Of a stretch of DNA of 9,820 nt, positions 6,723-8,714 are shown piece by piece. A model generated the notes under the pieces. The model had not been told where the DNA came from. It saw only the letters and a program-made list of their open reading frames with translations, and did no database searches. Location of the stretch: positions 1 to 9,820 of the forward strand of contig JAGCAV010000455.1 in NCBI GenBank assembly GCA_017652545.1, in the 5' to 3' direction. Every line of letters begins with the position of its first letter. Within the stretch, counting starts at the first letter, position 1. Position numbers and translations under genes: made by a program. The DNA is from Lachnospiraceae bacterium. GTDB taxonomy: Bacteria; Bacillota_A; Clostridia; Lachnospirales; Lachnospiraceae.

Positions 6723-6740
6723 AATCTTCACCTGATTTCT

Positions 6741-6769
6741 TGACATGCCTTTTTGAAAGGCATACATTT
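6741..6769 (+). promoter_or_regulatory. Promoter with a perfect dyad in its spacer, upstream of the zinc-ribbon/DUF5685/J-domain cluster
   Basis: TTGACA (6741-6746) and TACATT (6764-6769) are 17 bases apart. Between them ATGCCTTT (6746-6753) and AAAGGCAT (6757-6764) form a perfect 8-bp inverted repeat with loop TTG, overlapping the last base of the -35 and the first of the -10. That is the classic position for a repressor or MerR-like operator. A terminator role for the kinase gene is less likely because no T-run follows. Confidence 0.6.
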
Positions 6770-6803: not shown

Positions 6804-7199
6804 GTGAAGGACAAGTTCAATCAGTTTATGACCGGCCGCTACGGCGTTGATGAGCTTTCAAAGGTCATGATGGGCGTGGCGGTAGGCGTGATGATACTCA
6901 ACCTGTTTGTGCGGCTTCAGATCCTGAATATTGTCGTGGTGGCACTGATCGTGCTGATCTACCTCAGGATGTTCTCGAAAAATATCCGGAAGCGGTATGA
7001 GGAGAACTGCAGATATTACGCGATCAAACAGAAGGTGCTGGGCTTCTTCGGAAAACAGAAGCGCACTGCCGCGGATCTGAAGAAGAATCACATTTACACG
7101 TGTCCGGGCTGCGGACAGAAGATCCGTATTCCCCGCGGCCGGGGCAGGATCATTGTGACCTGCCCGAAATGCAGACACGAATTTGAAAAGAAGAGCTGA
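6804..7199 (+). CDS. Small membrane protein with C-terminal zinc ribbon
   Basis: A 131-residue protein of unknown function. Two hydrophobic segments (about 20-36 and 39-56) are followed by a basic linker and a C-terminal CxxC-x16-CxxC zinc ribbon: C100-P-G-C103 and C120-P-K-C123. The GTG start at 6804 is chosen because AGGAAGGGG (6789-6797) sits six bases upstream; the ATGs at 6799 and 6802 are in another frame that stops at once. It would place a zinc ribbon on the cytoplasmic face next to the membrane. It is first in a cluster with the DUF5685-type gene, two bases downstream, and the J-domain gene, which suggests a joint function. Similar short zinc-ribbon proteins accompany DUF5685 genes in other Clostridia as far as I recall, but I cannot confirm that here. 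Confidence 0.82.
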   Translation: MKDKFNQFMTGRYGVDELSKVMMGVAVGVMILNLFVRLQILNIVVVALIVLIYLRMFSKNIRKRYEENCRYYAIKQKVLGFFGKQKRTAADLKKNHIYTCPGCGQKIRIPRGRGRIIVTCPKCRHEFEKKS

Positions 7200-7201
7200 T
7201 C

Positions 7202-8044
7202 ATGTTCGGATATATCCAGGCAAATGTGAAGGAACTGAAGATCAGGGAATATGAGCAGTACCGGGCATACTACTGCGGACTCTGCCATGAACTGAAAAAA
7301 AGATACGGCCGCAGGGGACAGTTCCTGCTCAGTTATGACATGACATTTCTGCTGATGCTTCTGAGCGCATTGTATGAGCCGGAAGAAACAAGGAGGAACG
7401 GCCGCTGCATTCCCCATCCGCTGAAGCGGCATGAGCAGATCCGGAGCGAGGTCACGGCCTATGCCGCCGATATGACGATCCTGCTCAGCTACAGAAAGGC
7501 AGCGGATGACTGGCATGATGAACACTCTGTAAGAGGAAGGCTGCTGCGTAACCTCCTGGAACGGGATAACAGGAAGCTTGCCGCCGGATATCCGAGACAG
7601 GCAGGGGAACTTGACCGCTGCGTGAAGGAACTGTCGGCAGCGGAAAAAAACGGAAGCCGGGATCCTGATTATACAGCCGGTCTGACAGGCGCTTTTCTGG
7701 GCGAAATATTCGTCTGGAAAAAGGACCTGTGGGAAGAACAGCTCAGAAGAACCGGATTTTATCTCGGAAAATTCATCTATCTGATGGATGCCTGGGATGA
7801 CCGGGAGGAAGACAGAAAGCACGGCAGTTACAACATTTTCAATCTGCTCGGGACAGAAAAGGAAGCCGCGCTTGCGATGATGCAGGATACGATGGCGCAC
7901 TGCTGCCGTGCTTTTGAGCAGCTTCCGATCGTGGAAATGGCTCCGATACTCAGAAATATACTTTACGCCGGCGTATGGACTGCATTTTCGTCGGGACAGG
8001 AACGCCGAGGTATTCCTGACAGGTCTTTGCAGGAAGAGGAATGA
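7202..8044 (+). CDS. DUF5685-type protein, possible isoprenoid-synthase-like fold
   Basis: A 280-residue, mostly alpha-helical, soluble protein. The start [20 protein letters not shown] and the YYCGLC motif (C25, C28) are typical of the uncharacterised family I know as DUF5685. What stands out are two DxxxD motifs: [11 protein letters not shown] with D102 and D106, and [17 protein letters not shown] with D200 and D204 followed by G208. Their contexts match, in pattern, the two aspartate-rich motifs of squalene/phytoene synthases (YxRxxDDxxDE, and LGxxxQxxNxxRDxxEDxxxG). By inference the protein may share that all-helical class I fold; catalytic activity is not shown. Further cysteines are at 69, 140, 234 and 235. 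It starts two bases after the zinc-ribbon gene, with only a weak ribosome site, so translation is probably coupled; a J-domain gene follows one base after its stop. Confidence 0.85.
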
Positions 8045-8045
8045 T

Positions 8046-8714
8046 ATGATGGATCCCTATGCCGTTCTGGGGGTAAACCGGAACGCGACAGATGAAGAAA
8101 TCAAAAAAGCATACAGACAGCTGAGCAGAAGGTATCACCCCGATGCGAATGTCAACAATCCGGACAAGGAAGCAGCGGAAGAGAAATTCAAGGATATCCA
8201 GCAGGCATACCAGCAGATCATGCATGACCGGGAACAGGGGTATGACAGTTATACGGATTATTCCGGGACAGGCGGCTATGGCGGGTTTGAGGGATACGGA
8301 CCTTTCGGCGGCTTTGGAAACAGCGCCGGAAACAGTTATTCCCAGACGGATGTCCATATGCAGGCTGTCCGGAATTTTATCAGCAGCAGGCACTATGCGG
8401 AAGCGCTGCGCCTCCTGAATGAGATGGAGGAACGCAGTGCCCGATGGTATTATTACAGCGCCATGGCAAACTCGGGACAGGGCAACAACGTGGTGGCAAA
8501 ACAGCATGCGCAGACAGCTTATGCCATGGAGCCGGACAATCTTCAGTACAGACAGCTGGCTTCCCGGATGGAAAACGGCGGCGACTGGTACAGAGGAATG
8601 GGAGAGATGTACGGGAATCCCCTTGATACAGGCGGAGGTGACTGGTGCACGAGGATGTGCATCGCGAATCTGCTCTGCAACTGCCTGTGCGGCGGGAGGT
8701 TTTTCTACTGTTAG
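8046..8714 (+). CDS. J-domain (DnaJ-like) protein with TPR-like region and cysteine-rich tail
   Basis: A 222-residue co-chaperone-like protein. The J domain (about 3-65) begins DPYAVLGV and has the HPD tripeptide (H31-P32-D33) that stimulates the Hsp70 ATPase. A glycine/phenylalanine-rich linker follows (about 74-95), then a helical TPR-like stretch (about 103-175), and a C-terminus with six cysteines (201, 205, 211, 213, 215, 222). It lacks the zinc-binding and substrate domains of true DnaJ, so it is a specialised class C J protein that would recruit DnaK to a particular client. ATG 8046 and 8049 are both possible; GAGGA at 8036-8040 serves either. The gene starts one base after the DUF5685-type stop, so these two proteins are likely made together and the DUF5685-type protein is a plausible client. 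Confidence 0.9.

Follow-up and report, generated by a model that had tools for sequence, protein, structure and literature searches.

The DUF5685 protein encoded in a 9,820-nucleotide stretch of DNA from a Lachnospiraceae bacterium (contig JAGCAV010000455.1; the whole stretch is called the window below) is predicted, almost certainly correctly, to adopt the class I, all-alpha isoprenoid-synthase fold. The gene (7202..8044, forward strand, 280 residues) has as its neighbour a gene for a protein ending in a cysteine-string tail, and across the family this link is the strongest lead on DUF5685 function. Diphosphate chemistry by the protein is probable from its predicted fold and motifs. It is further suggested, with the odds somewhat against, that DUF5685 is a divergent prenyltransferase of the class I isoprenoid-synthase superfamily which acts on the cysteine tail of its neighbour.

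The open reading frame had been described in an earlier note, made from the sequence of the window, as a DUF5685-type protein with two DxxxD motifs like those of squalene/phytoene synthases. Membership of the family is borne out by a match to PF18937 of 323.5 bits (E 1.4e-96) covering residues 1–262. Of the 7,997 candidates scored in a protein search, 7,063 proved homologous (E ≤0.001); carriers make up 28 of 249 genomes in a phylum sample and 25 of 97 in an order sample, and a match is also given by the Thermotoga maritima genome. For comparison of loci, 80 were taken from a scan of genome contigs (the best 80 of 546 confirmed, weighted to Lachnospiraceae) and 48 from three genome searches. 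These 128 loci supplied 127 proteins, the copy at L111 (genome G130) being broken by a TGA and left out; removal of nine proteins identical over residues 2–200 left 118, or 119 with that of the window. Related sequences are treated as independent in all conservation and locus counts.

Two AlphaFold models retrieve isoprenoid synthases throughout among the matches listed (50 for each model), with one title, 9a4c ‘ACP-HEPS2’, leaving the enzyme unspelled. The structural matches listed for them are synthases of the polyprenyl type, with MoeN5 in addition for the second model; squalene synthase does not appear among the 50 matches listed by VIA and Foldseek, an absence which excludes nothing. The fold match extends over the whole length of the protein, implying that both Asp motifs would face one cavity. 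Searches of the PDB by sequence, whether the query was the single protein or an 85-row profile, gave only chance-level matches (best E 0.95 and 0.41, respectively), and up to E 10 in Pfam the window protein matches PF18937 alone and not the squalene/phytoene synthase family PF00494, bearing in mind that the HMMER filters drop most matches above 0.1. Among the 25 of 41 Pfam families listed for 85 members, matches beyond PF18937 comprise a weak one to DUF2600 (E 0.0054), LANC_like in four members (best 0.015), DUF3841 in one (8e-5) and scattered others, with PF00494 again absent. Elsewhere, the best PHROGs match has an E of 0.016, PADLOC yields none at ≤0.01 and NCBIfam none at ≤0.1.

Profile comparison with hhalign places the Asp motifs in the register of squalene/phytoene and polyprenyl synthases. 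The DUF5685 alignment matches an alignment of eight squalene/phytoene synthases (SQS_PSY) at E 1.1e-4 (probability 56, 119 columns), laying an 11-residue DUF5685 segment on their first and a 17-residue segment on their second Asp motif. Against 24 polyprenyl synthases the same alignment gives E 0.0064 (probability 6, 181 columns), with both motifs in register, and an alignment of divergent DUF5685 proteins (43 rows) gives E 5.3e-6 (probability 86, 187 columns). Read by eye, the polyprenyl alignment pairs D196 with the leading Asp and D200 with the final Asp of the classical second DDxxD, and sets Tyr193 against a conserved Gln. With 23 DUF2600/YtpB-type proteins the match is weak (E 0.011, probability 4) and confined to the region of motif 2, where both families have the spacing D-x3-D-x3-D-x6-N with different intervening residues. 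As a scale, SQS against polyprenyl synthases scores E 6e-4 in the same test, and SQS against DUF2600 0.37. Shuffling of gap-poor columns (100 shuffles) never exceeds 21.8 for the SQS match, compared with a real score of 40.1, while the reversed SQS alignment reaches 16.1. One of 60 full-column SQS shuffles scored 133.7, above the real 40.3 (next best 21.5), and was judged an end artefact spanning 20 columns at 5% identity with zero summed probability. The DUF2600 match is regarded as weak because its 60 shuffles reach 22.2 against a real 27.0.

Twelve residues are identical in all 119 proteins: G3, C25, C28, C69, D102, D106, E148, G189, D196, D200, D204 and N211. The first Asp motif, DDWHD in the window (codons of D102–D106, 7505..7519), lies in the SQS_PSY register and is mostly DDxxD, position 103 being Asp in 106 of the proteins and Asn in six. 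The second is a ladder, D196-x3-D200-x3-D204, followed by N211 (7787..7834), and its register is recovered with SQS_PSY, the polyprenyl synthases and DUF2600 alike. Between them lies the invariant E148 (7643..7645). Less constant are Y193 (118 of 119, the other being Ser), N252 (117), H72 (103) and K99 (78). The divergent alignment, whose rows beyond the clade of locus L106 are 20–27% identical to the L106 protein, shows no variation in the same Asp, Cys, Glu, Gly, Tyr and Asn columns. Position 197 is Ala in 115 of 119 proteins and Asp in none, so that the second DDxxD of the classical polyprenyl synthases (PF00348) is not matched. Upstream of motif 2, the GxxxQxxN of the squalene/phytoene synthases, with G157, Q161 and N164 invariant in their alignment, corresponds to G189, Y193 and D196.

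These results bear on the earlier note in several ways. D102, D106, D200, D204 and G208 are where it placed them, 98 residues separate D102 from D200, and the four aspartates on which it proposed a conservation check are invariant in both DUF5685 alignments, above chance. G208 is conserved in only 79 of the 119 proteins. Neither another fold nor poor conservation of the aspartates was found, and the predicted models and the SQS_PSY register agree on an isoprenoid-synthase fold with two Asp motifs of the Mg-diphosphate type. A specific kinship to squalene/phytoene synthases is not supported: the structural matches are polyprenyl-type, PF00494 gives no match and Gln is replaced by Tyr in 118 of 119 proteins. 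A non-catalytic relative, which had been left open, is unlikely because the acidic residues are invariant. The linked cysteine-tail partner is absent from that note.

The YYCGLC pair near the N-terminus had been noted as a possible metal site. Its cysteines, C25 and C28 (codons in 7274..7285), are each present in 119 of 119 proteins, and they are joined by C69, equally constant, and H72 (codons of C69-x2-H72, 7406..7417), which lie at the tip of a predicted beta hairpin (strands 63–69 and 72–81). To judge from the residues, three Cys and a fourth ligand that varies more would make a suitable site for zinc. Both the Cys site and the predicted hairpin set DUF5685 apart from PF00494.

The partner in the window is a 222-residue protein encoded 1 nt 3′ of DUF5685 (8046..8714, forward strand), with a J domain (PF00226, E 4.7e-21), a TPR-like part whose TPR-type matches are under the cut-off, and the cysteine-string tail (8637..8711), which was read in translation and has counterparts in its relatives. 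A tail is adjacent or fused to DUF5685 in 119 of 127 loci, or 110 of the 118 distinct ones; three are without a tail and five end at contig ends, as at L070, where the partner side is not judgeable. BLAST homologues of the J protein occur in 112 of the 128 loci, and 108 of these have at least four Cys within their last 45 residues, the other four (L017, L020, L046 and L074) running into a contig end. The last 45 residues of the 108 hold 757 Cys, compared with 26 elsewhere in these proteins. The tails hold 4 to 16 Cys in a spacing that, by eye, varies with the clade; their remaining residues are most often Gly, Leu and Met.

The protein that carries the tail is less constant. At L101 the downstream tail protein has no evident J domain, and at L110 and L112–L115 (three distinct, the most divergent) it is a 123-residue protein with weak TPR matches. 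The tail is found on the gene just upstream of DUF5685 at L122 and L126–L128, and at L106 it is fused to DUF5685 itself (L106:1501–2628). Fusions of this type occur in 12 further database proteins (P0127–P0138), with 12–14 Cys in the last 60 residues. The J domain itself was considered as the partner and rejected, since the tail sits on J-less proteins in several clades. By the source name of an identical database entry, L106 is Anoxybacter fermentans. Outside the set, a cysteine-tailed J protein also follows DUF5685 in two plasmids and one ‘phage’ record.

Cysteine tails are scored by a crude count at 112 of 118 loci, but against much background: the antisense strand gives 38 of 118 loci, loci of SQS and DUF2600 6 of 33 and remoter open reading frames on the same strand 36 of 1,307. 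The tails counted in this way at L108 and L109 were judged spurious. In view of this background, the linkage was based on reading of the loci, a motif search and a TPR/tail search. A degenerate DNA motif encoding one tail type, CECMGGD, occurs in eight of the 249 phylum-sample genomes, once in each, and all eight are among the 28 DUF5685 carriers, with 390–624 bases separating motif and gene (hypergeometric 1e-8, kinship ignored). The TPR/tail half of the window partner is matched in 12 of the 97 order-sample genomes, all among the 25 carriers and 278–390 bases from DUF5685 (hypergeometric 7e-9, kinship again ignored). Neither query has a match in the sampled genomes without DUF5685. The converse direction, from DUF5685 to a tail, is based on the gene-by-gene reading of loci and not on these two queries.

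A mechanism can be proposed from these features. D102 and D106 together with D196, D200 and D204 would hold Mg2+ and bind a prenyl diphosphate, with E148 and N211 assisting the Asp ladder, and the enzyme would then ionise this substrate. PF00348 is present in all 31 genomes searched, so prenyl donors should be available. The prenyl group may be passed to Cys thiols in the tail encoded by the adjacent gene, here 8046–8714. C25, C28 and C69, with H72 in most members, may hold a metal, possibly zinc, which would either support the structure or activate the thiol that accepts the prenyl group. Once lipidated, the tail would tether the J/TPR protein to the membrane, and there the membrane-type product of 6804–7199 may meet it. 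The tail is tentatively put forward as the prenyl acceptor because it is the constant element while its carrier varies, because it can be fused to the enzyme, and because the superfamily relatives ComQ and PalQ prenylate dedicated peptides (PMC10853753, PMC13290415).

Comparison with known systems places this proposal among related enzymes. ComQ, PalQ and the P domain of ChrPC, peptide prenyltransferases of the trans-IDS-like type, share with DUF5685 the isoprenoid-synthase superfamily and Asp motifs and have a dedicated polypeptide acceptor; the putative counterpart of that acceptor is the tail found beside or within DUF5685. They prenylate Trp and have Gln before motif 2, whereas DUF5685 has Tyr193 and a cysteine-tail pairing; Trp specificity has been tied to the Gln just upstream of the second motif (PMC13290415). 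ComQ is without the second Asp motif (PMC10853753), which DUF5685 keeps in a DxxxD form. Eukaryotic Cys prenyltransferases use zinc (PMC13290415). In eukaryotic protein prenyltransferases a Zn in the active site binds the thiol to be prenylated; the three invariant Cys of DUF5685 could hold such a metal.

MoeN5, from moenomycin biosynthesis, acts on a phosphoglycolipid and is not known to have a Cys site or a J-protein partner. The DUF2600/YtpB large-terpene synthases (PF10776), which share the motif 2 spacing, are longer proteins, and a cysteine-tail partner at their loci was looked for only through the crude control described above. The combination of a J domain and a C-terminal cysteine string is found in eukaryotic DNAJC5, which is palmitoylated by DHHC enzymes. 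The bacterial proteins differ in having TPR-like parts and in adjoining DUF5685, and no common descent is claimed. It is conceivable, although on the unlikely side, that DUF5685 and its partner form a bacterial protein S-prenylation system, in which a single-subunit enzyme of the isoprenoid-synthase fold, equipped with a Cys-based metal site, modifies several tail cysteines of J-domain/TPR proteins. Such a system, which is put at the same low strength, would be a bacterial counterpart of the eukaryotic lipidated cysteine-string chaperones, with the substrate fused to the enzyme in one clade.

Several observations weigh against prenylation of the tail. The characterised peptide prenyltransferases of this type all act on Trp, according to a 2026 review (PMC13290415). 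The fused tail of L106 is predicted to be disordered (pLDDT 35–41) and gives no docking signal. The CECMGGD motif picks out 8 of 28 carriers and the TPR/tail query 12 of 25, leaving 20 and 13 unmatched; this is attributed to each query fitting only some tail types, the others being different or too diverged. Foldseek taken by itself gives no match at E ≤0.001. Three divergent loci, L107–L109 (three of the 118 distinct), keep the invariant Asp and Cys residues although no gene with a cysteine tail lies close by. By eye, the gene downstream at L107 (169 residues) resembles that at L109 (157 residues); P0121–P0125 are likewise divergent DUF5685 proteins.

The tail-less loci are also consistent with an alternative in which the product is a free prenyl lipid, formed or cyclised by DUF5685 in the manner of a head-to-head synthase or a terpene synthase (compare SQS/PSY and YtpB), with the tail protein serving it as chaperone, scaffold or metal donor. 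The SQS_PSY register and the spacing shared with DUF2600 fit this alternative, as do two motifs of the YtpB orthologue BalTS, DYLDNLxD and DY(F,L,W)IDxxED (PMC7839719). It is nevertheless judged rather improbable: a lipid synthase has no obvious need of the cysteine tail that is its most constant companion, even by fusion, and no terpene-modifying gene was recognised by eye, mostly without tool annotation, among neighbour families that recur at 5 or more of the 118 loci.

Alternatively, the tail could bind a metal. The fused tails are Asp-rich, with His before Cys in many, and together with the 4 to 16 Cys of the tails, the three invariant Cys of DUF5685 and the CxxC pair of a partner gene this would fit a tail that exchanges Zn, Cu or Fe-S with C25, C28 and C69, the isoprenoid-synthase-like body acting as a metal-dependent scaffold or sensor. 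Invariance of D102, D106, D196, D200, D204, N211 and E148 is left unexplained by this model but would be explained by Mg-diphosphate binding, and the clade-variable Cys spacing and the prevalence of Gly, Leu and Met among the other residues do not resemble a single fixed metal site; the model is accordingly considered quite unlikely. A little less likely again is that DUF5685 binds a prenyl diphosphate lipid, such as a cell-wall carrier lipid, without catalysis and thereby recruits the J-protein complex to the membrane. The evidence of fold and motifs would be the same and the membrane-type third gene would fit, but acidic residues that never vary are a more typical feature of catalysts. Finally, a generic helical-bundle resemblance with coincidental motifs is very improbable, albeit one to which the Foldseek E-values of only 1e-3 to 1e-2, the TM-scores of about 0.3 for the top FPPS rows and the sequence identity of only about 9–16% lend some colour.

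DUF5685 and its J-protein partner belong to a tight run of three genes. The first (6804..7199, forward strand), which ends 2 nt 5′ of DUF5685, encodes a small protein that is hydrophobic in its N-terminal half and bears a CxxC pair near its C-terminus; every zinc-ribbon-type match to it is under the cut-off. A BLAST homologue of it is found in 74 of 128 loci, and by clustering it is a close neighbour in 57 of 118. The run is preceded by a promoter-like sequence, TTGACA-17-TACATT (6740..6768, forward strand), which agrees with 10 of 12 consensus positions; such sites number 4 in the region compared with 1.8 (sd 1.6) in shuffles, a weak excess by consensus match only. Further 5′ are an apparent response regulator (3558) and histidine kinase (4329), identified by eye from their translations, and a PF02277 phosphoribosyltransferase lies 3′ of the run. 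A recurrent family which apparently includes two-component genes is present at 33 loci, with 27 members near. Rfam has no match in the window.

At L106 a polyprenyl synthase gene (PF00348, E 2.6e-48) is second downstream on the same strand, a single case. DUF2600 occurs in 76 of 199 phylum-sample genomes, and in five genomes (G007, G008, G009, G011 and G015) a polyprenyl synthase gene runs in the opposite direction no more than about 1 kb away from it; PF00494 is found in 7 of 199, compared with 28 of 249 for DUF5685. On mobile elements, a scan of viral contigs gave 113 pattern matches and no relative. Two unannotated faecal records named ‘Bacteriophage sp.’, MT835850.1 and MT835652.1, carry DUF5685. 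In the former, which is marked UNVERIFIED and may be bacterial DNA filed as phage, a J/cysteine-tail gene lies downstream. In Pusillibacter faecalis pMM59_01 (L203), a 504 kb record typed as a conjugative plasmid, DUF5685 and its J partner lie between cdaA/CdaR/RseC-family and YicC/gmk genes.

In the open-licence PMC literature, to which our searches were directed and which leaves subscription papers and preprints outside its scope, DUF5685 appears as a mention within a list and its pairing with a cysteine tail is undescribed. The superfamily itself is known; both the pairing with a tail and the suggested Cys acceptor are, within the reach of those searches, undescribed. A common clostridial family of unknown function gains a partner and, by prediction, a fold and a likely class of ligand. 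If the tail is indeed the acceptor, this would be dedicated bacterial protein S-prenylation by a fold whose peptide prenyltransferases, where characterised, modify Trp in every case (PMC13290415). Even if it is not, the cysteine-string J protein and the prenyl-synthase-like protein together constitute a testable module.
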